A stretch of 34,721 nucleotides of DNA from Desulfobacteraceae bacterium (GCA_021737225.1 JAIPEJ010000008.1:1-34721), one strand, 5' to 3'. Positions 3,997-28,416 are shown, numbered from the stretch's first letter. The notes: generated by a model from the sequence alone, not told the origin. A program made the numbers and translations.

Positions 3997-4748
3997 TGGC
4001 TGCTGACCGCAATGTTGACTTTTTGGATTACGCCCTTGAACCTGCGCATGCCTCCGCCGCAGCTGACAATGTGCAGCAGTTCGGCCGGGCGGGTCACCAG
4101 CACGCCCGAAAGCCCGGTAACCGGATAGTCTGTAAACAGACCGGGCAGCAGCGGCGTGGATGCACCCAGCAGGATTACACAGCGGCAGTTGGATGCCTGG
4201 TCAATGATTCGGTCAAACGTGTGGTTGATAATCGAGGTGGCCGTGAAAAGGCAAACCGTACACTCCGGCAGTTGATCCGGAATCTCCGCGGCGGGCTGCA
4301 GCATCCCGGAAGGGGCGTCGATCTGTTCGAATATGGTCAGCCGGGCCCCGGTATCCCGGACATTTTTCACCAGGGGGGCGAAGTGGCCGACCATGCCCAC
4401 GTGGTCGGCCGGGCCGAGTTTGACCGCATTGAGCACGTCCCCGGTGTCGTGCTCCGGGGCCGGGGTGTTGGCCAGCGCATTGGCGGCGGCCAGGCCGATG
4501 GCGGTTTCAAGCGGTTCTGCGGATGTCACGAATGTCAGCAGTTCGTCGGCCTTTCGGCCGGTCAGGGGCAGCATGCCCGTAAAAGTCGTGCAGCTCGGCC
4601 GAAGATGCCGGATCGGGGTGCAGGCAACCCCGGTCTGCCCGTTTTCCAGCATTACGGCGGTATACCCCAGCCCGATGCGCACGTCCGCGATCCGGTTTTC
4701 GGATGCCGGCCCGAGCAGATGGTCTTTGATGCGTTGCTGAATACCCAT
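3993..4748 (-). CDS. DUF364-like (putative heavy-metal chelation) domain protein
   Basis: 251 aa; pattern typical of DUF364/DUF4213 proteins (GLGYTAVML...ETAIGLAAANALAN...GMVGHFAPLVKNVR...CTVCLFTATSIINHTFDRII...LLGASTPLLPGLF). Overlaps the GNAT start by 4 bp. Confidence 0.7.
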   Translation of the reverse strand: MGIQQRIKDHLLGPASENRIADVRIGLGYTAVMLENGQTGVACTPIRHLRPSCTTFTGMLPLTGRKADELLTFVTSAEPLETAIGLAAANALANTPAPEHDTGDVLNAVKLGPADHVGMVGHFAPLVKNVRDTGARLTIFEQIDAPSGMLQPAAEIPDQLPECTVCLFTATSIINHTFDRIIDQASNCRCVILLGASTPLLPGLFTDYPVTGLSGVLVTRPAELLHIVSCGGGMRRFKGVIQKVNIAVSSQ

Positions 4749-4778
4749 GATGTGAAGAACCGCGCTTAATAATGATAG

Positions 4779-4805
4779 GCCTGTAAAAAAGTCTTTTTTA
4801 CAGGC
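4779..4805. repeat. Perfect 12-bp inverted repeat with 3-nt loop, GCCTGTAAAAAA-GTC-TTTTTTACAGGC
   Basis: Read directly from the sequence; lies 31 bp upstream of the DUF364-like gene start. Confidence 0.85.
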
Positions 4806-4809
4806 AGTG

Positions 4810-4838
4810 TTAAGTTTTAAGTGATTAAGTGTTTAAGT
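4810..4838. repeat. Four direct copies of TTAAGT at 7-8 bp spacing
   Basis: TTAAGT at 4810, 4817, 4825 and 4833; read directly from the sequence. Confidence 0.8.
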
Positions 4839-4995
4839 AAAATTAAAGCGTTATATTTTCATTGCTTGCCGGTGGTGCGGGAAAGCGGGTTTCCGAGCGG
4901 AAATTGAGGCTCGCATAGGCTCTTGGAGCGAGCAAACGCCTTTTTCGCGCCGCCGATCAGCCAATGTGCTTACGGATTCATGAATTTTTTATTTA

Positions 4996-6180
4996 TCATT
5001 CCGGCGCTTTTTCCACAAGCCGAATCACCGCAATCTCCGGGCGGCCCGTGGTCCGCATGGGCGGTCCCCAGGAGCCGACACCGCAGGAGGTATAAAGATA
5101 AAACCCGTTGATTTTTGTCAGTCCGTAATCCCTGCCCCTGTAAAGCAGCCGGGTAAGCAGGTTCACGGGAAAAACCTGGCCGTGATGGGTGTGGCCGGAG
5201 AGCTGCAAATCCATATCGAGCTTTTGATTCAGGGCATAGGCGGTATCCGGCCGCCAGTAGTTGGCATTGTGCTGCTGCTGCATGCCGCCGGCGTTTTTCG
5301 CCATTTCCGTGGGGGTATGAAACATGGCGATGCGGACACTGCCCGGGGTTTTTTGTGGCTGCAGGTTCTTTATTTCCGAAGGATCGGCAATGCCCGGGTA
5401 GCTCACGCCGATGATTTCCAGGCCGGCGATTTCTAAGGTTTCATCGTCTAAGACGCGCAGCGGGGTTTTGCTGATGATTTCAAGGGATTTTTCGATGCCC
5501 GCGTAGTGTTCGTGGTTGCCGGTGACAAAAAAGGTGCCATGCGATGCCCGGAGCTCGTCCAGGGGAGCCACGTTTTCTGCATAGTTCCCGCCCATGCCGT
5601 CGAGCAGATCCCCGGTGACCAGCACCAGTTCCGGATTCAGGGCGTTGATCCGGTTTACCACCCGGGCGGCAAACGCTTTTTGATGAAAAAACCCCAGGTG
5701 CAGATCCGAGATATGGACGATCGTGGTGTTTTTCCATGATTCCGGCAGGCTTTGCACGGGCACGGCCACATGTCTGAGCGCCGGGTGGAATGCGGCCCAT
5801 ATGCCGTAGCCGGTGCCCAGTATAGCGATTGCCAAGGCTGCGGCGGCAATCGTCTTGGCGGAAACCGATATCCCGGTGACCCGGGCCGCGGCCAGCAAAA
5901 GCCAGGCTGCGGCAGCGGCGGCAAGGCAATGGATTACAAAGCCCGTCCACACGGCAGCAAACTTGTAATAGGCAACCGTCCAGAGGTTTTCCCGCCAGTG
6001 AAGGGCGATAAACGCGGTGATAAAGGTAAAGCTCAGCACCGCCATGGCCGTGTACAGGAGGATTTTCACCTGCGGGCGGCTGATCTGGAAAAAATGCATG
6101 AAGCTTTTAAAGACCGCGAAATGAATCCCCAGCATCAGGCAGATCAGGGCTGCCGGGAAGAAAAGAAGTTTCATGTTCAT
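4996..6180 (-). CDS. Membrane-anchored calcineurin-like metallophosphoesterase
   Basis: 394 aa; N-terminal transmembrane segments, then HISDLHLGFFHQ, VTGDLLDG, TGNHEHYAG, LSGHTHHGQ motifs. Confidence 0.93.
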   Translation of the reverse strand: MNMKLLFFPAALICLMLGIHFAVFKSFMHFFQISRPQVKILLYTAMAVLSFTFITAFIALHWRENLWTVAYYKFAAVWTGFVIHCLAAAAAAWLLLAAARVTGISVSAKTIAAAALAIAILGTGYGIWAAFHPALRHVAVPVQSLPESWKNTTIVHISDLHLGFFHQKAFAARVVNRINALNPELVLVTGDLLDGMGGNYAENVAPLDELRASHGTFFVTGNHEHYAGIEKSLEIISKTPLRVLDDETLEIAGLEIIGVSYPGIADPSEIKNLQPQKTPGSVRIAMFHTPTEMAKNAGGMQQQHNANYWRPDTAYALNQKLDMDLQLSGHTHHGQVFPVNLLTRLLYRGRDYGLTKINGFYLYTSCGVGSWGPPMRTTGRPEIAVIRLVEKAPE

Positions 6181-8379: not shown

Positions 8380-9588
8380 ATGACTGATAGAGAAGTTGTT
8401 TTTGTTGATGGTGTGCGTACGGCATTCGGGCGGATGGGCGGCACCATCCGGGATTTTTTCTGTTCCCAGATCGGCGGGATCGCGCTGAAAGGGCTGCTGG
8501 ATAAAACCCAAATTGCGGAAAAAGCCCATGTGGAGACTGTTATGGCGGGTTCGGCCGCCCACTGTTCCCATGCCCTGAACCCCGCCAGGTGGGTCACCCT
8601 GTATGCGGGACTGCCGTATGAAACCACGGCATCCTATGTGGAGATGCAGTGCGGCTCGGCAATTGATTCGGTTAATCACGCGGCCTGGAAGATCCTGGCA
8701 AACCAGGCCGACATTGTTATTGCCGGAGGCATGGAATCTTACAGCCAGCTTCCGGCCAAGTTTTCCATGTCCACGCCGCCTTACCGTCTGATTCCGCCCA
8801 TGCCCATCCAGCAGCAGCTCTCGCCCGTTGCCGAGGAGTGCATCGGCATGGGCCTGACCGCCGAAAACCTGCAGCAGATGTATAACATCTCCAGGGAAGC
8901 TGCCGACGAGTTTGCATATAACAGCCAGATGCGGGCCAAGGCGGCCATGGAAGCCGGGTATTTTAAAGATGAAATCGTGCCGGTGACCATTCCGGGCACC
9001 CGCAAGACCCCGGAGGTCGTATTTGACACAGACGAGCATCCCCGGTTCGAGACCACCCTGGAGGCACTGGCCAAGCTGCCGCCTGCGTTCACAAAAGACG
9101 GGACCGTTACTGCCGGAAATGCCTCCGGGCAAAACGACGGCGGGGCTTTCCTGCTGATGATGACCCGGCAAAAAGCCGAAGAACTCGGTTATGCGCCAAT
9201 GGCGAAGTGGCTTTCGGGTGCGGAAGCCGGCTGTGACCCGAAGATCATGGGTATTGCCCCGGCCTATGCAGTGCCAAAGGCGCTAAAACGCGCCGGGGTC
9301 AAGCTTTCCCAGGTGGATCACATGGAGTGCAACGAGGCCTTTGCCGTGCAGAACCTCTCCGTGATCAAGGAGCTTGAAAACCAGACCGGCGACAAGGTGG
9401 ACATGGATAAATGGAATCCCATGGGCGGGGCAATCGCCTATGGCCATCCAAACGGCGCTTCGGGTGCCCGGGTGGGCATGTTTACCATCCGAAACCTGAT
9501 TCGAAACAGCGGCAGGTACGGGTTTTTCAGTTCCTGCTGCGGCGGCGGCCTCGGGGTGGCCACCGTGATCGAAAATCTGCAGAGATAA
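8380..9588 (+). CDS. Thiolase (acetyl-CoA acyltransferase)
   Basis: 402 aa; DGVRTAFGRMGG, YVEMQCGSAIDSVNHAA, NEAFAVQNL, GGAIAYGHPNGASGAR, CCGGGLGVATVIE. Confidence 0.95.
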   Translation: MTDREVVFVDGVRTAFGRMGGTIRDFFCSQIGGIALKGLLDKTQIAEKAHVETVMAGSAAHCSHALNPARWVTLYAGLPYETTASYVEMQCGSAIDSVNHAAWKILANQADIVIAGGMESYSQLPAKFSMSTPPYRLIPPMPIQQQLSPVAEECIGMGLTAENLQQMYNISREAADEFAYNSQMRAKAAMEAGYFKDEIVPVTIPGTRKTPEVVFDTDEHPRFETTLEALAKLPPAFTKDGTVTAGNASGQNDGGAFLLMMTRQKAEELGYAPMAKWLSGAEAGCDPKIMGIAPAYAVPKALKRAGVKLSQVDHMECNEAFAVQNLSVIKELENQTGDKVDMDKWNPMGGAIAYGHPNGASGARVGMFTIRNLIRNSGRYGFFSSCCGGGLGVATVIENLQR

Positions 9589-9604
9589 CCTTTTTGCCGG
9601 ATTC

Positions 9605-9632
9605 GCCGGGGATGCGTATCTTCATCCCCGGC
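9605..9632. terminator. Strong hairpin after the thiolase gene, GCCGGGGATG-(8)-CATCCCCGGC
   Basis: Perfect 10-bp stem 17 bp after the stop codon; no clear U-tract, so a terminator role is uncertain. Confidence 0.5.
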
Positions 9633-9642
9633 CCGCCTCTCC

Positions 9643-9720
9643 AAAAAGGGGACAGATCTATTTTTAAAAGGGGACAGATCTATTTTTTGCGAACCGCAAA
9701 AAATAGATCTGTCCCCTTTT
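9643..9720. repeat. REP-like palindromic repeat: AAAAGGGGACAGATCTATTTTT, one extra direct copy plus a 26-bp perfect hairpin
   Basis: Direct copy at 9643-9665. Stem 9666-9691 AAAAGGGGACAGATCTATTTTTTGCG, loop AAC, stem 9695-9720 CGCAAAAAATAGATCTGTCCCCTTTT. Confidence 0.9.
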
Positions 9721-12140: not shown

Positions 12141-12605
12141 TTACTGCCAGTGGTGTTTTTCATTGCCTCTGCCTCTATCGTTGCCTTTGTTTTTTGCATG
12201 CCCCGGCGGATAGCGCCGGACAACCTCGGAATGGTACCTGTAGGGCCGATCCGTGCCCATTTCCAGGGTGACATGATCCCCCATATTCACCCGGATGCGG
12301 CCCGGCAGGCTTGCGGAAACCCGCCAGTCGCCGCCGCTGTAGTAGAAGTAGACATCGCGCTGCGTATCAAAATAGACCTGTGTGGAGGGGTAATACCGAT
12401 ACCTTTTGGCCCGATGCCCGTGGGCCGGGGCCCAGGGCGGCGGCCCGCCCCGGTCTTCGTGATGCTCGTAGTTTCTTTCCCGATGGTCCGGGTAGCCCGG
12501 GTCATTTTCCAGGACCACCCGCGTGCCCGGGGCGCAGCCGGAAATCATAAGCACTGCGCACACCGCCAGCGCGGCTGCCAGACCATTGCAAACCTGTTTC
12601 TGCAT
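12141..12605 (-). CDS. Lipoprotein of unknown function
   Basis: 154 aa; signal peptide with lipobox (AVLMISGCAPG); Tyr/Arg/Pro-rich mature part. Confidence 0.75.
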   Translation of the reverse strand: MQKQVCNGLAAALAVCAVLMISGCAPGTRVVLENDPGYPDHRERNYEHHEDRGGPPPWAPAHGHRAKRYRYYPSTQVYFDTQRDVYFYYSGGDWRVSASLPGRIRVNMGDHVTLEMGTDRPYRYHSEVVRRYPPGHAKNKGNDRGRGNEKHHWQ

Positions 12606-12643
12606 TGGGATTCTCCCTTTTTCTGAGTCGGTCCCGTGATTTT

Positions 12644-13489
12644 TTAAAATGTGACACCGGCATTGATGCCGAATATATCGGCTTCTGATTTCGGCTGGTA
12701 GTAATAGCTGTTTCCAAAGGCCACCCGGTCGGATTCGGAAAACCGGAGGCCCTCGTAGAAAATGCTGAGCTTTACCATGCCGATTTCCAGTCCCGTCTCG
12801 GCAAATCCGGAAACCCGGTTGCCGGGTTCAAGGGTGATAAAGACCGAATCGGTTAACTCCGCTTCGTTTTCCGTGTAGATCGGGATCTTGACTCCTGCCG
12901 TGACAAATACTTCCAGCCGGCGGGAAAAAGCGTGAGCACCGTTTATGCCAGCCCGTGCGTAATAGTTCCGCCATCTTTCAGCGGCGCCCCTTGCATATTC
13001 GGTTGTCTGGCTGTCCGGATTCCAAAACGTGTTGCCCTGGATGTCCCGCTGCCACAGTCGGGCCCCGAAGCCCCCAAAAGGGCCTATTTCGGACTTTTCG
13101 CCTGGCACCAGGTCCATGCCCACGTCTGCTTCCAGCTTGACCCCTGCGTAATCCGTATCCGAGGTCAGCGGATAGTTTCCCAGGATTGTCTGACCATCAT
13201 AATCGATTTTTCCGCCGAACAGCTCGCCCCTGAATTTCGCGGTCACGATCTGTGTTATCGGGAGCCGGACACTGCCCCCCGCGCCATAAATCGGGCCGGA
13301 TTCCTCCAGTAGTTGCTCGCCGTTGACATATTCATTCCAGGTGAAATGTTCAATTTTCCCGTAGGCCTCAAATTCTGCCGCTGCAAAGCCGGTGTCAGAT
13401 CCAAAAGCGGCAAGCGGCATGGCGATCAGGCTGAAAACCACGGCAAAAAAGGCGGCGATTGGATGGCAGGATCCGGTGCCTGTATTCAT
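12644..13489 (-). CDS. Exported protein, probable outer-membrane beta-barrel
   Basis: 281 aa; N-terminal signal sequence, alternating amphipathic segments, C-terminal ...ADIFGINAGVTF ending in Phe. Confidence 0.7.
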   Translation of the reverse strand: MNTGTGSCHPIAAFFAVVFSLIAMPLAAFGSDTGFAAAEFEAYGKIEHFTWNEYVNGEQLLEESGPIYGAGGSVRLPITQIVTAKFRGELFGGKIDYDGQTILGNYPLTSDTDYAGVKLEADVGMDLVPGEKSEIGPFGGFGARLWQRDIQGNTFWNPDSQTTEYARGAAERWRNYYARAGINGAHAFSRRLEVFVTAGVKIPIYTENEAELTDSVFITLEPGNRVSGFAETGLEIGMVKLSIFYEGLRFSESDRVAFGNSYYYQPKSEADIFGINAGVTF

Positions 13490-13746
13490 GTGGCTTTTCT
13501 CCTTTGCTCAGGGCTGATCCCGGGATTGGGCCCGGGCCATTGAACCGGGAATGCATCTGTCTTATTTTGATTACAAATCGGATATCTCTGTGTGCCATCC
13601 GGAAATGAATAATAAAAACTTTAACAGGAAATCGGGGACTTTGCAAGGCAACGCCCTTCCAGGCCGCCGGGATGCGCAAGGAGTTGAATTTTATGCCGGA
13701 AAATAAAAATCGCAGAAGACAGGTGACAGCCGAAAAACTCGACCCT

Positions 13747-15630: not shown

Positions 15631-16197
15631 TTACCGGTAAAAGTAGGGATGGCGCCAGTGCCGGAAATAGGGGTCCCGGAAATAGGGATCGGGCCACGGG
15701 TAAAACGGATCGTAATAGTATTTCCGGGGCTCTTTGGGTTCCTGCCAGAGATGGATCTCGCGTGAACGCAGCACCGGCAGGGCGTATTCATGCTGGTTGA
15801 TCTGTACGGATTGCGTTCCCGTGATTTTTCCGGCCACGGTGATTTTTCGGTCTTTTTCGTAGATCACGGGGTCCAGAAATCCGTTGTGGACCACCAGGAA
15901 ACGGCCCTCTGAGCGGTCGCGCCCTGCCGGCTTATCGCTGATATCCAGCGGGGCATGCAGTATCGTGATCCTGGTTTCACCTGCGAGATTTCGGGTTTCC
16001 AGGATATAGCCCCCGAGGATTACGGTTTTTCCGGTATATGCATTTGTATTGCGTTTCAGGGAGGCGAAGTTCACCTCTGCTGCCGCTTCCTGCCGGATGT
16101 CCCGTGATATGACCGAACAGCCGGAAAAAAGCCCTGCGATCATGGCACAGATCAGCAGGGTGATGGCTGGTTTTTGGGGTAACTGTTTCCGGATCAT
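15631..16197 (-). CDS. Slp-family-like outer-membrane lipoprotein with Tyr/Pro/His-rich tail
   Basis: 188 aa; lipobox AGLFSGCS; NTNAYTGKTVILGGYILETRNLAGETRITILHAPLD...GRFLVVHNGFLDPVIYEKDRKITVAGKITGT; tail KYYYDPFYPWPDPYFRDPYFRHWRHPYFYR. Confidence 0.8.
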   Translation of the reverse strand: MIRKQLPQKPAITLLICAMIAGLFSGCSVISRDIRQEAAAEVNFASLKRNTNAYTGKTVILGGYILETRNLAGETRITILHAPLDISDKPAGRDRSEGRFLVVHNGFLDPVIYEKDRKITVAGKITGTQSVQINQHEYALPVLRSREIHLWQEPKEPRKYYYDPFYPWPDPYFRDPYFRHWRHPYFYR

Positions 16198-16342
16198 TGG
16201 CGCGTCCTTTGTGCGAATTCGTTTTTCGTCTTATTTTATAATTAAACATCCGGCAGGGGTTTTCAAGGCGGTTTGCCTGCGGAGCGCAAAAAAAGCCGTC
16301 AACATCGGGGCCGGGCAAAAAACAAAAGGAGGTCTCAGGATC

Positions 16343-16840
16343 ATGCGAATCCCGTATTTTTTGATTTCAGCAATGCTGGTGTTTGTACTTGCCGCGGCCG
16401 GGTGCGGATCGAAAATCCCGCCGGAGGTCACAGACCGGGTGAGCTGGAAAGGCGGTTTTAAAACCCTGCAGGCCGACCCGGAAGCATATGCCGGCGAGTT
16501 CGTTATCCTCGGCGGTGAGATCGTCGGCATTGAAAACCTGGCGGATTACTCCGAGATCACCGTGGTGCAATACCCCCTGGACCGGGAAAAGCGCCCCCAG
16601 CCGGAAAAGGCCTCGGCCGGCCGGTTTCTGATCCGATCCGACTCCTTTCTCGACCCCGAGATATACGAACCCGGAAAGCTGGTGACCGCTGCGGGCGAAA
16701 TCACGGGTGCCCAAAAGCGGGCCATCGGCGAATATTTGTACGAGCACCCGGTCATCCAGGGAGATCTGTGGGCGTGGGAGCCCCGCGAGACCAGCTTTCC
16801 CCGGTTTCATTTCGGCGTGGGCGTGGGCAAGACGTTTTGA
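16343..16840 (+). CDS. Slp-family-like outer-membrane lipoprotein
   Basis: Start at 16343 (MRIPYFLISAMLVFVLAAAGCGS), 165 aa; DPEAYAGEFVILGGEIVGIENLADYSEITVVQYPLD...GRFLIRSDSFLDPEIYEPGKLVTAAGEITGA, clearly paralogous to the divergent gene at 15631-16197. Confidence 0.8.
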   Translation: MRIPYFLISAMLVFVLAAAGCGSKIPPEVTDRVSWKGGFKTLQADPEAYAGEFVILGGEIVGIENLADYSEITVVQYPLDREKRPQPEKASAGRFLIRSDSFLDPEIYEPGKLVTAAGEITGAQKRAIGEYLYEHPVIQGDLWAWEPRETSFPRFHFGVGVGKTF

Positions 16841-17248: not shown

Positions 17249-17599
17249 TTACCACAGGCAGATCACTTTCCGGCCTTCCTCCAGCCGGGCGCCCACCTTT
17301 TCCATGTGGCGCAGGGGCGCCATTTCCCGCTCGAAATCGTCCATACTCATATCCAGATCGGCTGCCAGTTTTTCCGGCGGGGCAGGACCGTTTTTTTTCA
17401 GATAGTCGATAATGGCAGATTGTTGTTTATTTACCGTGGCACCGGAAGACGGCAGGTTCCTGGCGCTATACACGGCCCACGGATCACATGCCTTGGGCTT
17501 TGCCGCAAGATCGATGTAGCAGTCCTCGCACACGGTCTGGCCGCGGGCTTCCATGGCCTCATCTGCGTTGATTTCAGCACCGCATTTCTGGCATTTCAT
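17249..17599 (-). CDS. Small zinc-ribbon protein with C-terminal winged-helix-like part
   Basis: Likely start ATG at 17599 (MKCQKCGAEINADEAMEARGQTVCEDCYID...); two CxxC pairs; C-terminal QQSAIIDYLKKNGPAPPEKLAADLDMSMDDFEREMAPLRHMEKV. Confidence 0.7.
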   Translation of the reverse strand: MKCQKCGAEINADEAMEARGQTVCEDCYIDLAAKPKACDPWAVYSARNLPSSGATVNKQQSAIIDYLKKNGPAPPEKLAADLDMSMDDFEREMAPLRHMEKVGARLEEGRKVICLW

Positions 17600-17680
17600 T
17601 TCCAATTCCTCCGTAACTTTTCGTATTCTTTGATACACAAATAGTAAGAAGTGCCCGGAGGGAATGCAAGGCGTTGTTTC

Positions 17681-17739: not shown

Positions 17740-18159
17740 TTATTTGCCTCCCATGTTCTGCATGGCCAGTGTAATGCGCTGCTGGGCCTGCTGAACTTTT
17801 GGGTCGCCCATATAAGGCATGGCTTTCATGAAGCTGCTGCCGACTTTCTGCATCACCGCTTCATGTTCTTTGGTGGTTTGCCTGAATTGTTCGGGCTGCT
17901 GGTCCGGATTTTTGAGTTCAGGATATTTTTCATTGATTTCCCGGACACGCGGGGCCATTTCCTCGAGTCCGGCGGCGTAATCGTTCATGGCCGCAGCAAC
18001 TTTATCCGCACTGTCTGCTGAATCCATGGCCGCAACATAATCGCCGGCCAGGCTGATAAAATCCTCCTGCACATCCACGGCATCGTCGTATTTTCCGCCG
18101 CATCCGAATGTGAACACAAGCAATACGCAGCATAACAGGTACATCAGGTTTTTTTTCAT
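17740..18159 (-). CDS. Small lipoprotein of unknown function (last gene of the operon)
   Basis: Likely start ATG at 18159: MKKNLMYLLCCVLLVFTFGCGGKYDDAVDVQEDFISLAGDYVAAMDSADSADKVAAAMNDYAAGLEEMAPRVREINEKYPELKNP..., lipobox FTFGCG, 139 aa. Confidence 0.75.
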   Translation of the reverse strand: MKKNLMYLLCCVLLVFTFGCGGKYDDAVDVQEDFISLAGDYVAAMDSADSADKVAAAMNDYAAGLEEMAPRVREINEKYPELKNPDQQPEQFRQTTKEHEAVMQKVGSSFMKAMPYMGDPKVQQAQQRITLAMQNMGGK

Positions 18160-18185
18160 GTTTTCTCCTTGATTTTTTGGGACCG

Positions 18186-20168
18186 TTAAAGACCCGTGGA
18201 AGATTTGATTTTTTCCAGGACGGTTTCCGAGGGGGCGCAGTAAATATAATTCCCCGCCACCGGCTGCCAGTTTTCCTGTGTGATTTTGCCCAGTTTTTTG
18301 TGATAGTAGGTTACCCGGTATGAAAGCGCGTCCCTGTCGGCATCCTGGTAGATGACCTTGTTGACCAGGGGTTCGCCCACGGCCGGGGAAAGCGCCAGGG
18401 CGCGGCTGTCGGTGTGCTGCCTGCCGAATTGGTTGTAACGCAGCTCGACAAGGGCGCGTACGATCCCCAATCTTTCCATTTCCGCCAGATCGGCTTCCGC
18501 TTCCAGGGTGCGGGGGCGCACCGGTGCGGCCAGGGTGACGGCCATGAGCTCGCCCTCGGACCACCGGGGCTCCGGGGGATAAAGATGGCCGCCCCGCAGG
18601 CTCCATTGCACGGCATAGTCATATGTCTGGGCGTCATCGCCCATGCGCGCATAGGTCAGGGTTGCGGTCTGTCCGTTGGTTTCCAGGTATTTCTGGTCAA
18701 TGGTGAGTTCATCGATAAACGGCCGCTGGTCTTTTCGGGGCACCCGGACCTGCACTGTGGCGTAATTGACCATTTCATTGAATATGTCATAGGCTTCGTT
18801 ATCAATAACAAAGCGCATCTCCCGGCGCTGGAAAAACGGATCATCCAGGTTGACTTCAGTGACCAGCTTTGGATTGTCCTTGTATTTTTCATACCAGGCC
18901 CCCACGTTGCCGGTCATGGTATAGTGTTCATACCTGGCCATGACTTTCTTCAGGTTGAGCCTCTGCGTGGATTTTGCATGCGTTTCTTTTCGCTGGAAAA
19001 CCTTGTAGCTGTAATTGTTGTGTTTTGCGGCCTGTTTTCGTCTTTCCGCAATTGCTTCTGCATCCTCATCTTCTTCGTTGTCGGATAACAGTTCCTCTGC
19101 CGCGGGTTGTCCCAGGCGGGTTTGCGTGTCAAAAAACGCTTCCAGAACGAGTTTGTGCAGCCCGCTTTCCACAATCTCCTTGTCGCTTTCCGGCACGTGC
19201 TGGTTATAATTAAAGGTCACCGCGCCGGTTTCCTGCAGGAACTTCACTGTCTGGGAGCGCTCTTCTTCAGTAAGCATGGTGCTTTTTTTGGTGCTGGTAT
19301 TCAGCGGATTGTACCATTTGGGATCCCAGTATTTGCGCGTTTCCACGGTTTTCTTCCGGTCATGGGAATATTCTGATTCGATTTCATGGAATCTGTCAAA
19401 ATCCATGACCACTTCCACATCGTATGCCGGCAGTTTGACCACGTATTTTAGATCGAAAACCACGGAAACCTGGGATGTGGGCTGCTTGAAGCTCTCTGCC
19501 AGAAGCGTGGCCCCGTAGGCGTCCAGGCGGGCGGCAACCGCTACCTGCTGACCTTCCATGACCGGGGCTTTGCCGCTGGTAATCAGCGTGGAGGTAAATT
19601 CCTCGTCTCCCAGAACAGCGGAAATTACGTTGAAACTGTTGCCCTCGGCGCCGATTTCCAGTGGAACCGCGCCTTTCAGGCGGGCGCCCTTGACCCTTTT
19701 TTGCAGCAGTGCTTCGGTTTCCTGCTGCTGGTTCTTGCTCAGCCCGTATTCAGCCAGGAAATGCAGCACCGCACCCTCGGCCCCGCCTTCTTCCTTGGTT
19801 TTATCCGTGACAAACCGGATCAGGGAGAATTTCGGCGTGCCGTCCGGATGCCTGGACACGTGCGGATTGGCCGGCAGATAGTAATAGGTCTTGCTGGTTT
19901 TTTCCGGATTGTCGACGGCTGCGGGAAAACACCGCACGGTCGTGCCGTCTTTGAGTTTTACGTCGATGTGGCGGCCGTACTGAATCCCGCCCACCTCCCG
20001 GGCGGTCTCGGATGAAGGCACCGTCACAGTCGGCCGGATCGTCAGCGGTTTGAATTTCCGGGCATGCTGGAGATTTTTCTCCTGGGTGACCCCGGCCCGG
20101 GCCGGCCCGGGGAGAGCCAGGACAATCATCGCCATGATAAATACCGCGGGCTTCCATGGTTTCTTCAT
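18186..20168 (-). CDS. Exported protein of unknown function, paralog A of the operon family
   Basis: 660 aa with signal peptide; shares YYYLPANPHVSRHPDGTPKFSLIRF, KAPVMEGQQVAVAARLDAYGATLLAESFKQPTSQVSVVFD, YKDNPKLVTEVNLDDPFFQRREMRFVID with the two neighbouring large genes. Confidence 0.85.
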   Translation of the reverse strand: MKKPWKPAVFIMAMIVLALPGPARAGVTQEKNLQHARKFKPLTIRPTVTVPSSETAREVGGIQYGRHIDVKLKDGTTVRCFPAAVDNPEKTSKTYYYLPANPHVSRHPDGTPKFSLIRFVTDKTKEEGGAEGAVLHFLAEYGLSKNQQQETEALLQKRVKGARLKGAVPLEIGAEGNSFNVISAVLGDEEFTSTLITSGKAPVMEGQQVAVAARLDAYGATLLAESFKQPTSQVSVVFDLKYVVKLPAYDVEVVMDFDRFHEIESEYSHDRKKTVETRKYWDPKWYNPLNTSTKKSTMLTEEERSQTVKFLQETGAVTFNYNQHVPESDKEIVESGLHKLVLEAFFDTQTRLGQPAAEELLSDNEEDEDAEAIAERRKQAAKHNNYSYKVFQRKETHAKSTQRLNLKKVMARYEHYTMTGNVGAWYEKYKDNPKLVTEVNLDDPFFQRREMRFVIDNEAYDIFNEMVNYATVQVRVPRKDQRPFIDELTIDQKYLETNGQTATLTYARMGDDAQTYDYAVQWSLRGGHLYPPEPRWSEGELMAVTLAAPVRPRTLEAEADLAEMERLGIVRALVELRYNQFGRQHTDSRALALSPAVGEPLVNKVIYQDADRDALSYRVTYYHKKLGKITQENWQPVAGNYIYCAPSETVLEKIKSSTGL

Positions 20169-20207
20169 TTTCTGCCTCCTTGTTTTTCTACGGCACCGGC
20201 CGCGATA

Positions 20208-21971
20208 TTATTGGCCCGGCGGTATCAGGACCAGATAGGTTTCATCCAGTTTCTGCCAGGCGCCTTTTATGGGTTTGGATCCGGACGGGTACCAGTTAAC
20301 CCGGTATTCGAGCCTCTGCCCGGGATCATGGAAAAGCACATGCCGGGAAACCGATTCCCCGTCGGTAACCCTCATTACTGCCAGGCGTTTTTTGACTTGC
20401 TGGTCGAAAACCGGATACCTGACTTCCATGGTGGCACTCCGGATGCCTGCATCTTCAAACAGGAATCGGTCCGCGTCCAGTTCCAAGTCCGTGCGCTCAA
20501 GCGGCGGGGCAATGGTGACAATGGGGTCGCTGCTTTTGTTCCATTCCCCCTCGTTTTCGGGATGCTTGATCCTGTGCTGGCCCTTGATGCTCCAGGTGGT
20601 GCGATAGCCGTAGTTCAGCCAGTTTTCGTCTTTTTCCCCGAGCCGGGCATAGCGCCAGGATTTGCTCAGTCGGCCTTCCCGGATATCTTCCCGGGTAAAT
20701 ATCAGCTCGCCGGTGGCGTCCTTGTGATCACCGTATTTTTTCAACACGGAAATCCCGGCAAAATTCATGATATCCTCAAAAACCCCTGAAAAATCACCGT
20801 CAATGCGGAAAAACACGTCCCGCTTCGCAAAGGCCGGATCAGCCAGGTTCACCACGCGGAACATTTCCGGGTTTTCCTTGAATTCCCGGTAAAGCCCGGA
20901 GATGTTTCCTGCGGTGTCCACCGGTACGCGGATCACCGCCCGGCGGTTTAAATGAATATTAAATGAGGCCCGGTTGATGTCTGTGCGCTCTTTGATCACG
21001 TACTGGTTGTCCGTGTAATACTTCTGGTTGCCGGAACTGGTAAACAACTTGGCCAGCCAGCCCTTTTTCTGGCGGCCCTTGAGCTGTCCGGATTCCACGG
21101 CTTTCTCCTTTTCCGGAATGGCGGTAAACCCGGTTTCCTGGTCAAAAATAATTTCCGTCAGCTTGGTTGTGGCCAGATCCACCAGGCTCTGCATGGCCTT
21201 GTTGGCCGCATCCTCTGGAAGGCGGTCAAAAATCTCCACGTTGATCACCCCGGTGCGGACCAGTTCATCCGTGATATCCCGGATCTGGCGCTTGGTGTAG
21301 TTTTCCTGCCGGTTGATGACCTGCGAGAAATGTTCATAAACGGTGCTGACATCCGCACTGATTTTGGCCTCAAAAGAGGGCAGGGCGGCTTCGTAATATG
21401 TGCGCAGCGCCACTGAGACATCAGAGGTGGGTTTGTTCAATGACTCCCACAGCAGTGTCGCCCCGTGGGGCGACAGGGTGGCGGCAATCGCGGCCTTTGA
21501 GCCCGGTGTGACCGGTGCGCGGCCGCTGCTGATCAGACTGCGGGTAAATCCCTCGTTTGAGAGCGTGCCCGAAATAATGGAAAAGCTGCCTTCTTCCTCC
21601 TGGTTCAGTGGTACCGGACCGGCCAGCCGGGCTTTGCCGTTTTTCTGTTTCAGGGCTTTTTCAAGCGCAGCGCGCTCATCTGCAGGCATGGAAAAGCTCA
21701 CCAGCATGTGCAGCAGCCCGCCGCTGGTATCTCCTTGCGGATCGATAAACTTCACCAGGGAGATTTCCAGGGCGCCGTCTTTTTTTTCAGATACCCTGGG
21801 CACAGTGGGCAGGTAGTAATACACATCCGGATCCCCGGCATCCTGGAGCAATAAAACCCCGTTTATTTCCATCTGCCCGGCCTCGTAATTGACCAGCCCC
21901 CATGCCGGTGGCACGGCCGCAACAAGAAAAAAGCAGATCGCCGCAATTGCGAGTCTTTTGAAATCCGCCAT
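20208..21971 (-). CDS. Exported protein of unknown function, paralog B of the operon family
   Basis: 587 aa with signal peptide; YYYLPTVPRVSEKKDGALEISLVKF, RAPVTPGSKAAIAATLSPHGATLLWESLNKPTSDVSVAL, FKENPEMFRVVNLADPAFAKRDVFFRIDG. Confidence 0.85.
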   Translation of the reverse strand: MADFKRLAIAAICFFLVAAVPPAWGLVNYEAGQMEINGVLLLQDAGDPDVYYYLPTVPRVSEKKDGALEISLVKFIDPQGDTSGGLLHMLVSFSMPADERAALEKALKQKNGKARLAGPVPLNQEEEGSFSIISGTLSNEGFTRSLISSGRAPVTPGSKAAIAATLSPHGATLLWESLNKPTSDVSVALRTYYEAALPSFEAKISADVSTVYEHFSQVINRQENYTKRQIRDITDELVRTGVINVEIFDRLPEDAANKAMQSLVDLATTKLTEIIFDQETGFTAIPEKEKAVESGQLKGRQKKGWLAKLFTSSGNQKYYTDNQYVIKERTDINRASFNIHLNRRAVIRVPVDTAGNISGLYREFKENPEMFRVVNLADPAFAKRDVFFRIDGDFSGVFEDIMNFAGISVLKKYGDHKDATGELIFTREDIREGRLSKSWRYARLGEKDENWLNYGYRTTWSIKGQHRIKHPENEGEWNKSSDPIVTIAPPLERTDLELDADRFLFEDAGIRSATMEVRYPVFDQQVKKRLAVMRVTDGESVSRHVLFHDPGQRLEYRVNWYPSGSKPIKGAWQKLDETYLVLIPPGQ

Positions 21972-21974
21972 TTT

Positions 21975-24380
21975 TTAGACCCCTCCCCCGGGAAGCTCGT
22001 CCCAGTAGATGATATCCCCTTCCAGCTTTTTTTCTGCCGAGGAGATTTTCCGGTTTTCTGTCAGATACCAGGTGATGTTCACCCGGGTCTCCGGGTTGTC
22101 CGGATCCTCCGGAATGTCTAAGACCAGGGAAGGCGCCGGGCCTTTATTCCGTATGGTGGCCTGCCGGGTGACATAATGATCTTTGATCCGGCATTTCACC
22201 GTGATGACGCCATGACGCACATCCGCCCCTGTCAGGCGGCTGCCGTCGCCCTCAATGGAAATCGTCCTGTAGTGATGGGGCGGTGCCAGCGCCAGCATGG
22301 GCGCGTCGGTGGCTTTCCACGGCGTCCGGATCTGCATTCCGCCGTGGAAGGACCAGATGGCCTGGTATTGGTAATCCAGCCAGGCACTGCGATCAGCGTC
22401 GTTTTTCCACCCGTAGGTCATGGAGAAATGGTTGCCGGATTCCGTAAATGTCTCGGGCGTAATCACGACTTCTGCGGTTGTCACATCGCCGGCCTGGTGG
22501 CGTTTTTTCATTTTCACGGTGACAAAGTTCATGTACCGGGTAAATGTGGCCGCATCCTGGCCGTCTAAGGTCACCCGGATTTCGCGCTGTTTGAAAACCG
22601 GATCGTCAATGGTCACAGCGCGAAACACCCGGGGGTCGTTGCCGTATTTCCGATAAATCGGCCCGATGTTTTCGGCCATGGCAAAGGCCTGGTTTTCCGT
22701 GCGGTAGTGGTTCATGTGATAGACCATTTTCCCGGAGCGCTTGATCCGCTTCATCTGATAGGAGGCCACCAGGGAAAATCCCGGAAATCCGTTTGAACGG
22801 TTCTTTTGGGCGGCCGTGGCTTTTTTGCTTTTGTTTTCGGACTTTTTAGATTTGGCGTTCCCTGCTTTCGCCTCTTCGCTCGGGCCGGATGCAGATTTTT
22901 TCATCGCCGGATTTGGACTGCCGGCATTTTTGTCTGCATCCGCCACGCTTTTTTCTTTTGCGGAAGAGCCGGGCTTTGAGGAGGCGCCGGAAGAGCTGTC
23001 AGACTGGACTTTTTCCGGCTTTTGTTCCGGGGATTCAACAGAGGGAATGGTTTCTATGGCTTCCTCTACTGCAGAGCTTTCTGTTTTTGCTTCCAGACGC
23101 TTGCCAAGCATCCGGATGCGGCCGTTGACCTCCTTGGCGCGGCTACCCGTGGGATTGTGCTTTTCCCGGTATTCTTTATAGGTTTCCAGGGCGGCCCGGG
23201 TATCCTCAACTTTGAATCCGCCTTTTCGTGCCTTTTCGTAGCGCTCTCTGGCCAGGTTATAGGCATAGCCGGGGTCTATCTCGAAAGCTGCTTCTTCCAT
23301 GGCCGTTATTTCCGCATGGGTTTTCTCTGAGAGCGTTCCGGATTCTGCATAGGCCCGCGGAAAAAGGGTGCTTAAAACAGTGTTCCAGATATTGCTGTCC
23401 ACGCCTGCGTTTTTCTTGGATGTCTTTTTGCCTGAGCCGCTGTCTTTGGCACCTGCAGCGTTTTTCAGAAGTTTTACCGCCTGGTTTAAGCTCCCGTAAC
23501 TGTCCTTGTCTTCAGAGGCCCGGGCCAGGGCGTCTGCAGGCGCCGGGTCAAACATTACCTTGAGCAGTTTTTCATTTGCGCTCTGCAGGATTTTGTCCAT
23601 GTTTGCGTTTTCGCCCTTTGTGGTGATCTTAACGGCGCCTGTCTGGCGCAGTTCCTGAAATAGAAGATCCACATCCGCACCGAACCAAGCATACTTGAAG
23701 CCTGCCTTTAGGCTGTCGTGCTTGCTGACCCGTTTCCAGTCCGCCTCCAGGGTGGCCTCATAGGGCTCCCGGATTCCTGCGAACTCCATGTCAAACACCA
23801 GGGAGATATCCGGCGTGTCGCTTTGGAAGCTTTCCCACAAAAGCTCTGCACCTTCCCGGGTCAGGGCCATGGACACGGCGGCTTTCTGTCCTTCCATCAA
23901 GGGGGCTTTGCCCACGGCCACCGTGCGCGTGGTCCGGTCCTGTCCTTGCTGAAACGAAGTAATCAGGGCAAAGCTGCCTTTGCGATAAGCCACCGGACCG
24001 ACCAGGCTTGCCTCGGGGTGCCGCTGTTGCAGATCCTTTTCGGCCTGCCGGACCCGGTCCCGGGAGACCCCGTAAGTCACCAGGAAATGCACAATGCCGC
24101 CGCCCCTGGCGCGTCCCGTACCGGCCTTGCCGGTTTCATGCGTCCGTGCGTACTTGAGAAACGAAAACTGGGGTCTGCCGTTTTTATAGGCGAGCCCGGG
24201 CTGGTCCGGCAGATAGTAGAATCGATCCGGTGCCTTTGCGTCGGGATAGCAGATCAGGTCCGCACATTTTTCCATTTGATCCAGCAGGATTTCCTGTGCC
24301 GCTGCCGGGCCGGCCATGATCCCCGCAAACAGGAAAAAAACCGGCAATGCCGTCAAAAGCAGTTTTCGGAAAACAGACAC
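21975..24380 (-). CDS. Exported protein of unknown function, paralog C of the operon family with a long Ser/Lys/Glu-rich linker
   Basis: 801 aa with signal peptide; FYYLPDQPGLAYKNGRPQFSFLKY, KAPLMEGQKAAVSMALTREGAELLWESFQSDTPDISLVFD, YGNDPRVFRAVTIDDPVFKQREIRVTLDG. Confidence 0.85.
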   Translation of the reverse strand: MSVFRKLLLTALPVFFLFAGIMAGPAAAQEILLDQMEKCADLICYPDAKAPDRFYYLPDQPGLAYKNGRPQFSFLKYARTHETGKAGTGRARGGGIVHFLVTYGVSRDRVRQAEKDLQQRHPEASLVGPVAYRKGSFALITSFQQGQDRTTRTVAVGKAPLMEGQKAAVSMALTREGAELLWESFQSDTPDISLVFDMEFAGIREPYEATLEADWKRVSKHDSLKAGFKYAWFGADVDLLFQELRQTGAVKITTKGENANMDKILQSANEKLLKVMFDPAPADALARASEDKDSYGSLNQAVKLLKNAAGAKDSGSGKKTSKKNAGVDSNIWNTVLSTLFPRAYAESGTLSEKTHAEITAMEEAAFEIDPGYAYNLARERYEKARKGGFKVEDTRAALETYKEYREKHNPTGSRAKEVNGRIRMLGKRLEAKTESSAVEEAIETIPSVESPEQKPEKVQSDSSSGASSKPGSSAKEKSVADADKNAGSPNPAMKKSASGPSEEAKAGNAKSKKSENKSKKATAAQKNRSNGFPGFSLVASYQMKRIKRSGKMVYHMNHYRTENQAFAMAENIGPIYRKYGNDPRVFRAVTIDDPVFKQREIRVTLDGQDAATFTRYMNFVTVKMKKRHQAGDVTTAEVVITPETFTESGNHFSMTYGWKNDADRSAWLDYQYQAIWSFHGGMQIRTPWKATDAPMLALAPPHHYRTISIEGDGSRLTGADVRHGVITVKCRIKDHYVTRQATIRNKGPAPSLVLDIPEDPDNPETRVNITWYLTENRKISSAEKKLEGDIIYWDELPGGGV

Positions 24381-24404
24381 TTTACACGCCTCCTTTCTTA
24401 CAAA

Positions 24405-25442
24405 TCATGGATGCTCAGCTGCCTGACCGGTTTTTCCGGCCCTATCCGCCGTATTTTCATAGGCGGTGATATCCAGCAGGGCTTCCCCGCTTTTTTTTTG
24501 CCACCTGCCGGTTTTCTTGCTGCCGTCTTTGTAAATCCGGGAAATCCGGTATCGGTAAGGCCGGTCCAGGTCTTTGGCCAGCTTGAACTCGATGCGGCGG
24601 CGGTAGTCGCCGTTTTTCCGGAATGTCAGTGTTTCCACCAGGTCCCTGCCGGCCGTGGGGATGGCCACTTCAACGATCTTTGCGTACAGGTTTTCTTCCA
24701 GGTTTTCCAGAAAGTCAAAGCAGAAAACATCCAGGCCGGTATATCCCACTTTCATCCGCGCGCCGAGATCCATGCGCCGGAAATGGGCCGGATGGGCGTT
24801 CATGTCCATTTCAACCGGGACGACCCAGGTTTGCGCGGTGAAAGCAGGCTCCCATTGATCCCCGGTTTTGCGCACGCCCGCAAGGGTCTCATCAATGGCC
24901 AGGCTCACCTGGGTCTGACCGGCTGTGACGGCATCCCACAGAATTTCAGCGAGCCGCGCATTCAGGGGCAGTACTAGGGTGCCGCCTTTCCACCGGGTGG
25001 AATAGGACCGGGAGTCCTGCGCGTCTGCAAACATCAGGGAGATCCGGGTTTCCGAAATCGGCATGGTACTCGTTTTGGGCGAACCGATACCCCTGGTGCG
25101 GAGTTCTTTGCGGATTTTTGTTGAAATTTCGGATTTGCGCGGGCGGTCAATGCCGAATGTGAGAACCCCTCGCACCCAAAAGTCGCCTGAATCGCTCGTG
25201 CCTTTGCGTCCAAGGTAGCGGTACAGGGCCAGTCCGTAGTCCGGCGTACCGTCGGCCCGTTTGTCCAGCAGGGGCTGGGCCGGCATCATATACCATTTGG
25301 AAGGATTCTCGTGATCCCGGTATATCCGCACGCCTGCGATGTCTGTAAAGTGATCCAGATCGGGCGCGGCCCGGCAGACAGCGCCGCCGCACAGCACCAG
25401 GATGGCCGACAGCAGCAGATATTTCATGGGTGGCGTTTTCAC
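24405..25442 (-). CDS. Exported protein of unknown function, shorter relative D of the operon family
   Basis: 345 aa with signal peptide; WYMMPAQPLLDKRADGTPDYGLALY, LVLPLNARLAEILWDAVTAGQTQVSLAID, C-terminal YRYRISRIYKDGSKKTGRWQKKSGEALLDIT. Confidence 0.82.
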   Translation of the reverse strand: MKTPPMKYLLLSAILVLCGGAVCRAAPDLDHFTDIAGVRIYRDHENPSKWYMMPAQPLLDKRADGTPDYGLALYRYLGRKGTSDSGDFWVRGVLTFGIDRPRKSEISTKIRKELRTRGIGSPKTSTMPISETRISLMFADAQDSRSYSTRWKGGTLVLPLNARLAEILWDAVTAGQTQVSLAIDETLAGVRKTGDQWEPAFTAQTWVVPVEMDMNAHPAHFRRMDLGARMKVGYTGLDVFCFDFLENLEENLYAKIVEVAIPTAGRDLVETLTFRKNGDYRRRIEFKLAKDLDRPYRYRISRIYKDGSKKTGRWQKKSGEALLDITAYENTADRAGKTGQAAEHP

Positions 25443-25457
25443 ATTTCCGTCTCCGCG

Positions 25458-26954
25458 CTAGTCGGTGGCACCATTGAACAACACTTCAAGTTGGCTGGAT
25501 CCGAAAAACTGGGTCAGTTTTCTGGCGTCCTCCCATTGGGGGGCCATCCGGGTTTGCCCGGTCTGCGTGACGGCTTCGAGGCGGTATTTGTACAACAATG
25601 GATCGGCGCCCTTGTCTGAGGGCACATAAACCATGAGATTTTCGCTGACGTTGTTGTCAGCGGTCAGCGTGATCTCCTTTTTCTGCACTGTTGAGGCCTG
25701 TGCGGTAAAATACGGGGACTGGACATGGACAATTAACTTGTATACGCTGAATTCATCAAACAGCCCGGGAATGGCCTCCATATGAATCCGGCTGCCCGGG
25801 GCCAGCGCCACGCCTTTGCGGATGCGGCGATCGATTGTATCCAGGCAGTCTGCACAACTGCCGTCTATGTCAAGTCCCATCCAGCTCACCATGCGGTTGT
25901 CTCCCAGTAGCTTTTCAGCCGGCGGCAGTTTCAGGGGCCTGTCGGTTCCCGGGTCAATGCGCACGGTCTTGAGTTTCTTGGAAATCCTTTCGAGCTTGCC
26001 GTTTTTCAGGCGGTAGGCATTGATTGCCTCGAGCGCCACCGGAAAGTCTGTTACGTTTTCAAGGGATGCAATGCCCTGGCCGCTGGCCCACGCATCAAAT
26101 CCTTTCAACCGGGGACCGGAAAACTGCGCGTACTGGATACGGATGGGAACGGGGATTCGGGTTTGCTCAACGGCCACGTTCAGGGTTCCCACCAGGCCGT
26201 CATGGGCGATCTGGGCCAGGACTTCCTCTGTTTCGTCCTGTGTCAGCGAGAGCGTGAGCCTGAAAACCTGTTTTAGATGTGCCGGCGGATTCAGGTGAAT
26301 TCGTTCGGCCGGCAGGGCCAGGCCGGTGGCCAGTGCCTGCAAATCCGCTGTTGCCCCCAGGCCCGGCAGTGCTTTGATCGTAAGTGGGTCCGTGGACTTG
26401 AGCGCAAATGCCTGGCGCAGGATTGATTTCAGCAAATGGACGTCCCCCGGAAGATGCGGTGCCTGGAGTTCCGCAGTGACCATCACGGAAGGCTGTCCGG
26501 GTTCCGCCCGGGTATTGTACTGAACATTGAGTCGATAGCCGTCTGCATCGCGTTTTAGCAAAAACGCCCGGGGGATGTAATAAAAGACATTTCCCGCAGC
26601 TTTGTCCTGGAGGATCAGGTGACTGTCCCAGCCGCAGACCATGCCCAGATCCGCAAGCAGTGCGGGGTCATCGATCACGTCGCTTAAATCCAGGGTGGCT
26701 GACGGGTCCGGCCCCCCGGGTTCGGCGGGTTCGGTTTTCGGGATCACCGGCCGCAGGTTTTTCAGCCTGGATGGTATGGGTCTTCTGATTTGTACCGCGG
26801 TTCGCGGTTGAAACGTAAAGGTTTGCGTTGCCCTGGCGGCCTGAACGGTATCCGGGTGGAGCCTTAGCGTTTTGTTTGTATCCGGGGAAGAGTCTGCAGC
26901 CTGGGCGGTTATGCCGAGAAATAAAGAAAATATGACAGCAGCGAATTTTCGCAT
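25458..26954 (-). CDS. Exported protein of unknown function, distant relative E of the operon family
   Basis: 498 aa with signal peptide; FYYIPRAFLLKRDADGYRLNVQY and a C-terminal YKYRLEAVTQTGQTRMAPQWEDARKLTQFF resembling the C-terminal ends of A-D. Confidence 0.75.
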   Translation of the reverse strand: MRKFAAVIFSLFLGITAQAADSSPDTNKTLRLHPDTVQAARATQTFTFQPRTAVQIRRPIPSRLKNLRPVIPKTEPAEPGGPDPSATLDLSDVIDDPALLADLGMVCGWDSHLILQDKAAGNVFYYIPRAFLLKRDADGYRLNVQYNTRAEPGQPSVMVTAELQAPHLPGDVHLLKSILRQAFALKSTDPLTIKALPGLGATADLQALATGLALPAERIHLNPPAHLKQVFRLTLSLTQDETEEVLAQIAHDGLVGTLNVAVEQTRIPVPIRIQYAQFSGPRLKGFDAWASGQGIASLENVTDFPVALEAINAYRLKNGKLERISKKLKTVRIDPGTDRPLKLPPAEKLLGDNRMVSWMGLDIDGSCADCLDTIDRRIRKGVALAPGSRIHMEAIPGLFDEFSVYKLIVHVQSPYFTAQASTVQKKEITLTADNNVSENLMVYVPSDKGADPLLYKYRLEAVTQTGQTRMAPQWEDARKLTQFFGSSQLEVLFNGATD

Positions 26955-27000
26955 GGGCGTTGCTCCGGGTTTGCGGGTAAGCTTTTAAGGCCCTTGGCGG

Positions 27001-28311
27001 TTATTGCTTGACCAGCTTGGGGTTTACCCACACCGCCCAGTCCCGGGCACTGGTTCGGCCGGCAGACGTCCGCAGAACAATGTTGACGGGCTTGCCCGCC
27101 CAGGCGGACAGGTCTGCTGTCAGCGGGGTGTAAGCGCGGTTGGTAATGTGTTTGCGAAGCACCCGCCGGGCGTTTTTGCCCTGTTCCAGGACAAAAACAG
27201 ACATCACAACCCCGTCGGAGGCCTCCGCGCCTTTTAGCAGGGCACCGGTGGCCTTGAATGTGACGTTTCTGCCAAGCCGCATCAGGGGGAAGCGTCCTTG
27301 TATCCATCCGCCGACTTTCCATTGGGGATGGGTCTGCAAAAGGTTTACCGCCTTGTTGTTGGGGCAGATGACACCGTTTTTCAGGGTTCTTGCAAAACCG
27401 CGCCTGTCGTTGTCCGGTCCCGGAAAGGGCAGTGGTCCGGCATTGCTTTTCCACTGGGCCATGTCCGCCTGGTCAAAGAAATTATATTCGGAAACCGTAT
27501 GCTGAATTTCCACCTTTTCCGGTGCAACAGAGACTCGCCGGTTTACGCCGCCTGCCTCTGAAGCCGGACTCGGTGCCGATTTATCCACAGTTGCGGTTGG
27601 CAGCGCCTTTAATGTTGTTCCGGGCCGTATGACTGCAGCACCGGATCCCGCCGTGTCACTTTCCTCGGTGGTTTCACCCGCCGCCAGTTCAATGGTTTCC
27701 TCTGAATCGGCTTCTTCTTCCATGTTTTGCACAGGGGTTTCGATTTCGCTGCTGTCTGTCCATGTTTTTGGGAAATCATAGACCAGGCTGCCGAACGGAC
27801 GATCCGGATTGGTCTTTCGCACCAGGTACAGGTGGATCTGATCGGATTTCACTGCTTCTGCGGCCGAGCCCCATTCGTCATTGGCCGCCTGCGGATCCCG
27901 GCCGATTCTGAGTGTCACAGTGCCCTTTTTGCCCTGTACGGGAGAAATCGTACTTGAAAAACCGTCCAGGGGTTCGCTCCAGCGCATCACTTCGCCCTGT
28001 ACGGAAACGCCGTCCTTGCGTTTGACTTTTTCGTATTCTACTTCTAGAACAATTTCATTTCCTCGTCTTTCCAGAAGTTTTACTTCTCCGATCCGGCCTT
28101 CGTAGTTTCCGATGAATTCCTCGATGCCTTCTTCCATGGATTCCTGCGCCGCTTTGCCGACTGCTTTGAATATCCCGTCGAGCACTCCGCCGCTTTCGCC
28201 CTGGGTTTGTTCAGTCTGGGGATTGTCTTCAACTTGTGCATACAGGGGGGCGGCAATTGCCAGCGAAAGTAAAAAAATTAAAATCCCCCGGGAAAATAAA
28301 TGCTTATTCAT
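27001..28311 (-). CDS. Exported protein of unknown function, first gene of the operon; C-terminal beta-sandwich-like domain
   Basis: 436 aa; signal peptide (MNKHLFSRGILIFLLSLAIAAPLYAQ), acidic/Thr-rich linker in the middle, C-terminal YNFFDQADMAQWKSNAGPLPFPG...HPQWKVGGWIQGRFPLMRLGRNVTFKATGALLKGAEASDGVVMSVFVLEQGK...NIVLRTSAGRTSARDWAVWVNPKLVKQ. RBS CAAGGAGACC. Confidence 0.8.
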   Translation of the reverse strand: MNKHLFSRGILIFLLSLAIAAPLYAQVEDNPQTEQTQGESGGVLDGIFKAVGKAAQESMEEGIEEFIGNYEGRIGEVKLLERRGNEIVLEVEYEKVKRKDGVSVQGEVMRWSEPLDGFSSTISPVQGKKGTVTLRIGRDPQAANDEWGSAAEAVKSDQIHLYLVRKTNPDRPFGSLVYDFPKTWTDSSEIETPVQNMEEEADSEETIELAAGETTEESDTAGSGAAVIRPGTTLKALPTATVDKSAPSPASEAGGVNRRVSVAPEKVEIQHTVSEYNFFDQADMAQWKSNAGPLPFPGPDNDRRGFARTLKNGVICPNNKAVNLLQTHPQWKVGGWIQGRFPLMRLGRNVTFKATGALLKGAEASDGVVMSVFVLEQGKNARRVLRKHITNRAYTPLTADLSAWAGKPVNIVLRTSAGRTSARDWAVWVNPKLVKQ

Positions 28312-28387: not shown

Positions 28388-28416
28388 TTTATACTAAAAA
28401 TGGAGTTGTATGTAAA
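28388..28416 (-). promoter_or_regulatory. Sigma70-like promoter for the 17740-28311 operon
   Basis: Minus strand: TTTACA - 17 bp (TACAACTCCATTTTTAG) - TATAAA, about 80 bp upstream of the ATG at 28311. Confidence 0.6.

Follow-up and report, generated by a model that had tools for sequence, protein, structure and literature searches.

What do seven closely spaced genes for exported proteins, several of them paralogs of one another, build together in a member of the Desulfobacteraceae? The genes lie on the minus strand of the window, the 34,721-nucleotide stretch analyzed here (contig C161), which belongs to an assembly of 2.67 Mb in 208 contigs that is 77% complete (76.9%). They had been proposed as one operon in a reading made from the DNA alone (the sequence-only reading), and all seven of its minus-strand open reading frames (ORFs) were recovered. 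Genes are named G1 to G7 in order of transcription, and genomes carry three-digit labels such as G503 and G045. G1 (27001–28311, 436 aa) is an ORF with an ortholog in every contig covering its position, and G2 (25458–26954, 498 aa) encodes an exported protein that profile comparisons place as a remote relative of the paralog family. G3 (24405–25442, 345 aa) is a short exported paralog, for which alignment, a repeat HMM and profile comparison delineated an N-domain and a C-terminal repeat. The longer exported paralogs G4 (21975–24380, 801 aa), G5 (20208–21971, 587 aa) and G6 (18186–20168, 660 aa) were defined by ORF and alignment, together with a structure model for G5. The last gene, G7 (17740–18159, 139 aa), was assigned as an accessory lipoprotein by cross-genome comparison.

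The intergenic gaps were measured as 46, 15, 24, 3, 39, and 26 bp, in agreement with the 3–46 bp read earlier, and most of the gaps contain AGGAG-like ribosome sites. This spacing suggests that G1–G7 are read as one transcript. The promoter-like element TTTACA-N17-TATAAA upstream of the cassette (28388–28416, minus strand) was found exactly as previously described, but a general scan gave such sites no more frequently than shuffled sequences, so that it counts as no more than a plausible promoter. Export of the whole set was borne out, since all seven N-termini are signal-peptide-like with a hydrophobic core of 2.6–3.25 on the Kyte-Doolittle scale. The lipobox ascribed to G7 is visible by eye as an FGC lipobox-like end, but did not match a stricter lipobox pattern. 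Purifying selection was detected on all seven genes (dN/dS 0.11–0.30 in genus-level comparisons, with G3 from one comparison). Just downstream, a 129-aa protein encoded at 17249–17638 (minus strand) appears by eye to have a zinc-ribbon-like N-terminus with CxxC and a stretch resembling a helix-turn-helix, and a similar gene likewise comes after the cassette in genome G008. Close to the cassette, Slp-type lipoprotein genes stand back to back, with the Slp outer-membrane lipoprotein family (PF03843) matched by two overlapping ORFs on opposite strands (15631–16197, minus; 16049–16840, plus).

Shared domains and structure models

The relationship claimed for the three long proteins was confirmed by alignment, with E = 3e-60 for 587 versus 660 aa (G5 and G6) and E = 1e-27 for 801 versus 587 aa (G4 and G5); G4 and G6 (801 versus 660 aa) gave E = 1e-26. 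The 345-aa G3, also assigned to the family from the start, matched the 801-aa G4 (E = 5e-9), and its own family matched the other paralogs in a profile comparison (97.7%, E = 2e-12). Homology of the paralogs is thus, as judged from these alignments, far above chance. The traces of the family noted in the 498-aa G2 held up only as a remote relationship, for which a profile comparison with the shared N-domain gave 72.7% and E = 3e-5. The motifs by which the family had been described are composites, of which "SLxKF" and "LLWES" are broken in some members.

The shared N-domain ("YYLP" domain) was located with profile A7 on the minus strand at 24858–25355 (G3), 23556–24293 (G4), 21192–21866 (G5), and 19164–19961 (G6). 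It is followed toward the C-terminus by a repeat of about 85 beta-rich residues at a spacing of about 95 residues. The repeat HMM identified one C-terminal copy each in G3 (residues 265–319; 24486–24650, minus strand; E 3e-7), G5 (residues 496–576; 20244–20486, minus strand; E 2e-3) and G6 (residues 567–637; 18258–18470, minus strand; E 7e-13, for an iterated HMM to which this G6 copy itself contributed), and a weak, partial copy in G4. The repeat is beta-sandwich-like, and the G5 copy was modeled as beta strands with pLDDT mostly 75–87. In G4, the N-domain is separated from the C-terminal half by a long variable insert of low-complexity or helical character, which occupies the same place as an insert of the longest leaderless paralogs described below (L028 13851–18416 and L101 12606–15659), where an OmpA-like stretch was seen by eye between N-domain and repeats.

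The beta-sandwich protein of the sequence-only reading corresponds to the 436-aa G1, which consists of a signal peptide, a beta-rich domain (approximately residues 73–180), a low-complexity linker and a predicted C-terminal jelly roll (residues 336–435; 27007–27306, minus strand). The G1 model, built from three sequences, is weak overall (mean pLDDT 50), while the jelly roll reaches pLDDT mostly 62–83. A Foldseek search with this weak model placed the jelly roll close to carbohydrate-binding modules (CBMs) and MAM domains at E 1e-5 to 1e-3, with a probability of about 1.0 for several CBMs; the matches were CBM61 (2xom), a porphyran CBM (8xmz), a beta-sandwich-superfamily CBM (2c26) and MAM domains. 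Jelly rolls are common among domains that bind no sugar. For G5, the model from 12 sequences was poor (mean pLDDT 64, pTM 0.40), and its usable regions are limited to the beta-rich C-terminal portion and a fraction of the N-domain. The generic Ig/FnIII or complement-like folds that Foldseek returned for it (TM ~0.1) were not taken as evidence of homology, given the poor quality of the model.

A place for these proteins in a characterized family, which would have refuted the sequence-only reading, was searched for and none was found. Comparison of the cassette proteins with Pfam, NCBIfam, and PHROGs gave nothing convincing; weak matches to CheZ, LUC7, and DUF736, and that of a lysozyme inhibitor model to the G7 leader, were below cut-off and unrelated. 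Profile searches of the PDB with four alignments and the repeat alignment gave none or chance matches, and searches of the freely readable literature found no mention of these proteins. A phage origin, as prophage or tailocin structural genes, was rejected, as the cassette proteins have no significant PHROG match and no relative in viral contigs, and a relative without signal peptide, likewise compared, matched no phage. On these searches, the cassette proteins lie outside every known family tested.

Distribution of the cassette and its leaderless relatives

Co-occurrence of the genes in other genomes was looked for and was observed for G1–G6. This six-gene cassette recurs with its gene order unchanged across six or more families of Desulfobacterota, namely in the genus of the window's genome and in genomes G503, G302, G306, G323, G731, and G754. 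Genome G659 also keeps the order, but its G3 and G5 look truncated. In this single-contig genome the two genes (locus L095, approximately 8605–9646 and 12383–13729) appear truncated or frameshifted, through either sequencing error or decay. The set is patchily inherited: within the genus, four genomes have the cassette and five do not, fragments were detected in G463 and G745, and G023 holds a decayed remnant, which suggests loss of the cassette after its gain. The remnant (locus L029, approximately 3987–5784) retains parts of G2 and of G5 and is interrupted by a stop. The N-domain profile, made of 30 rows, matched 14/390 genomes of the order and 6/395 of the phylum. These counts also take in the two leaderless carriers (G045 and G476), the G023 remnant and a lone divergent protein of G682. 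The latter is a leaderless N-domain protein of 729 aa (L102 2–2188) with no array on its short contig.

Genes flanking the cassette are unlike between loci, and in a concatenated G2-G5-G6 tree the sequence of G306, a genome of another order, was nested inside the order's sequences with a support of 99–100%. This nesting points to transfer between orders, unless the 12 kb contig of G306 was mis-binned, and thus suggests that the cassette has moved between lineages. G7 was present only in the four cassette-bearing genomes of the genus. The lipoprotein "cap" envisaged earlier is accordingly a genus-level add-on outside the G1–G6 core, and the conserved core holds no gene for secretion or anchoring.

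The family as first described was also extended by sister arrays whose proteins share the N-domain and, unlike every cassette protein, have no signal peptide. Such leaderless arrays were found in two other Desulfobacterales genomes, G045 (4,455,399 bp) and G476, and on two alphaproteobacterial plasmids, one of Paracoccus and one of Pararhizobium. Each contains 3–5 N-domain paralogs, the proteins carry 2–5 tandem copies of the beta-sandwich-like 85-residue repeat, and a G2 counterpart was recognized in three of the four arrays (profile comparison 96%, E 4.8e-9). Two of the four adjoin a STAND NTPase, which is suggestive but was noticed post hoc and is not a statistical test. In G476, the only nSTAND1 match of the genome above cut-off (E 2e-95) lies approximately 320 bp upstream of the array on the same strand. 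Directly upstream of the Paracoccus array lie genes for an EAD1-Trypsin_2 protein, an EAD1 protein and a STAND-like NTPase, which are the only two EAD1 proteins and the only above-cut-off nSTAND1 match of that plasmid. The same locus also encodes a phospholipase D-like protein, and genes for another trypsin-like protease and a tyrosinase stand at its end. The longest array protein of G045 has a fused trypsin domain (E 1e-9), and no STAND, EAD1 or trypsin was found alongside the Pararhizobium array. EAD1 (PF19955) was present only at the Paracoccus plasmid locus and in G004, there away from the cassette, and was not found in the window's genome (76.9% complete) or in 11 of the 12 other genomes tested. 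An extra protein common to leaderless arrays (L101 16570–17406, L103 688–1641, and L105 16476–18572) has by eye the look of a squalene-cyclase/prenyltransferase alpha-barrel, of which the L101 copy has no Pfam match; the gene preceding that for the nSTAND1 protein (L101 2–439) appears TIR-like by eye, again with no Pfam match.

A tree built from 38 N-domains showed each of G3, G4, G5, and G6 as monophyletic with a support of 99–100%. G4, G5, and G6 together formed one clade (97/94) that was separate from the leaderless proteins (92/85). As each paralog forms its own clade across the families sampled, the gene copies arose before the cassette spread, and a recent tandem duplication within this genome was ruled out. 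The earlier proposal of repeated duplication into subunits therefore stands in so far as the duplicated genes are kept together and exported, with the addition that the duplications are old. A one-to-one correspondence of G4, G5, and G6 with leaderless paralogs was unsupported by the two clades, and the leaderless arrays seem to have been expanded separately. All four paralogs are retained in every complete locus.

Proposed function and rival explanations

We tentatively propose as the most likely reading, at somewhat less than an even chance, that the cassette encodes an exported (extracytoplasmic) hetero-oligomeric assembly with a component of the glycan- or target-binding type. The products of G1–G6 would form this one assembly, in which the anciently diverged paralogs G3–G6, together with their remote relative G2, would act as non-interchangeable subunits. 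The carbohydrate-binding-type domain of G1 may tie the assembly to a glycan, either of the cell's own envelope or of a foreign surface, and its putative purpose would be target recognition. It could be viewed as the secreted sister of the cytoplasm-type arrays, some of which may be coupled to STAND NTPases and to proteases of the trypsin type. That the subunits are distinct is argued chiefly from the retention of the full paralog set and the monophyly of each member, from which we infer that the cassette proteins may form one complex. A selected function is indicated by the constancy of the six genes as a set in distant sulfate reducers and by their apparent movement between lineages. A wider reading, that of an undescribed multi-subunit recognition machine with two forms, one cytoplasmic and coupled to STAND NTPases and trypsin-like proteases, the other exported, transferable, bearing a lectin-like protein at its tip and performing recognition of that kind outside the cell, is unlikely.

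The most interesting live alternative, itself rather unlikely, is a role in defence or inter-bacterial conflict, for which the cassette would be an extracytoplasmic version of STAND-NTPase/EAD1/trypsin sensor or effector arrays directed against phages, predators or competitors. In its favor are the nSTAND1 gene beside the G476 array, the nSTAND1 and both EAD1 proteins, one of them a Trypsin_2 fusion, beside the Paracoccus array, the trypsin fusion in G045, and the sporadic spread of the cassette, apparently by transfer. However, a STAND gene adjoins just two of the four arrays and is absent beside that of Pararhizobium. The exported cassette has no nuclease, protease or other recognizable effector, and a STAND, AP-ATPase or MoxR-type NTPase core was found at two of the four leaderless loci and in none of the cassette proteins. 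Six proteins submitted to PADLOC at E 0.01 (those of 587, 801, 498, and 436 aa and two leaderless paralogs) matched nothing, and the flanks hold no recognized defence-island genes.

Proteins that are exported and combine beta-sandwich repeats with CBM-like and low-complexity stretches are a usual feature of coats and adhesins, and the cassette has this makeup; pilins and a Bacteroides adhesin are also among the Foldseek matches of G5, at TM < 0.25. The cassette might encode an adhesin or a surface structure such as a fibre, a sheath or an S-layer-like coat, with recognition limited to envelope anchoring and the scattered distribution reflecting niche. We consider this quite unlikely, as no usher, chaperone or sortase domain was detected by Pfam or NCBIfam in the cassette, nor by Pfam in the neighboring window genes scanned, and the cassette has no T9SS domain; moreover, a fixed number of four divergent paralogs exceeds the needs of a simple coat, and the NTPase and protease neighbors of the sister arrays would be left unexplained. 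A periplasmic complex that handles polysaccharide or lipid, with one paralog being an unrecognized enzyme, would agree with the CBM-like domain of G1 and with the phospholipase D-like protein and tyrosinase of the Paracoccus locus. This is very improbable, since most residues invariant among the paralogs are structural ones (Y, L, P, and G), no catalytic set is recognizable among them, and neither a CAZyme nor a transporter travels with the cassette.

Comparison with known systems

The exported assembly proposed here can be set beside several known systems, among which its newness consists in lying outside the families tested, its mechanism being a proposal. With carbohydrate-binding modules (CBM61, CBM4, and MAM-type) it may share a jelly-roll fold, as the weak model of the G1 C-terminal domain suggests, but G1 has neither a sequence profile match to them nor a catalytic partner. 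SusCD-like loci for glycan uptake differ in that no SusC or SusD domain was found in the window genes scanned and the flanks of the cassette vary by locus. The cassette-family repeat resembles Ig/FnIII repeats in being beta-rich, approximately 85 residues long and, in the leaderless proteins, tandem, and 14 repeats compared with the Pfam Ig, FnIII, and CBM20 families gave no significant match.

The closest context is that of the predicted conflict systems described by Kaur et al. in eLife (2020, PMC7159879; 2021 follow-up, PMC8195603), in which combinations of trypsin, EAD1, and STAND, and nSTAND1, are discussed and lectin-fold NPCBM modules are described as sensors of invaders. No Ig-like term was met in a search of the main text of these two papers. 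The window cassette differs from such systems in being exported and in having no NTPase, EAD or protease, but its leaderless relatives adjoin EAD1-Trypsin_2, EAD1, and STAND NTPase genes in Paracoccus, or an nSTAND1-pentapeptide gene in G476. This link between the exported cassette and the leaderless arrays provides a concrete, testable route to what may be a new bacterial recognition or defence assembly.
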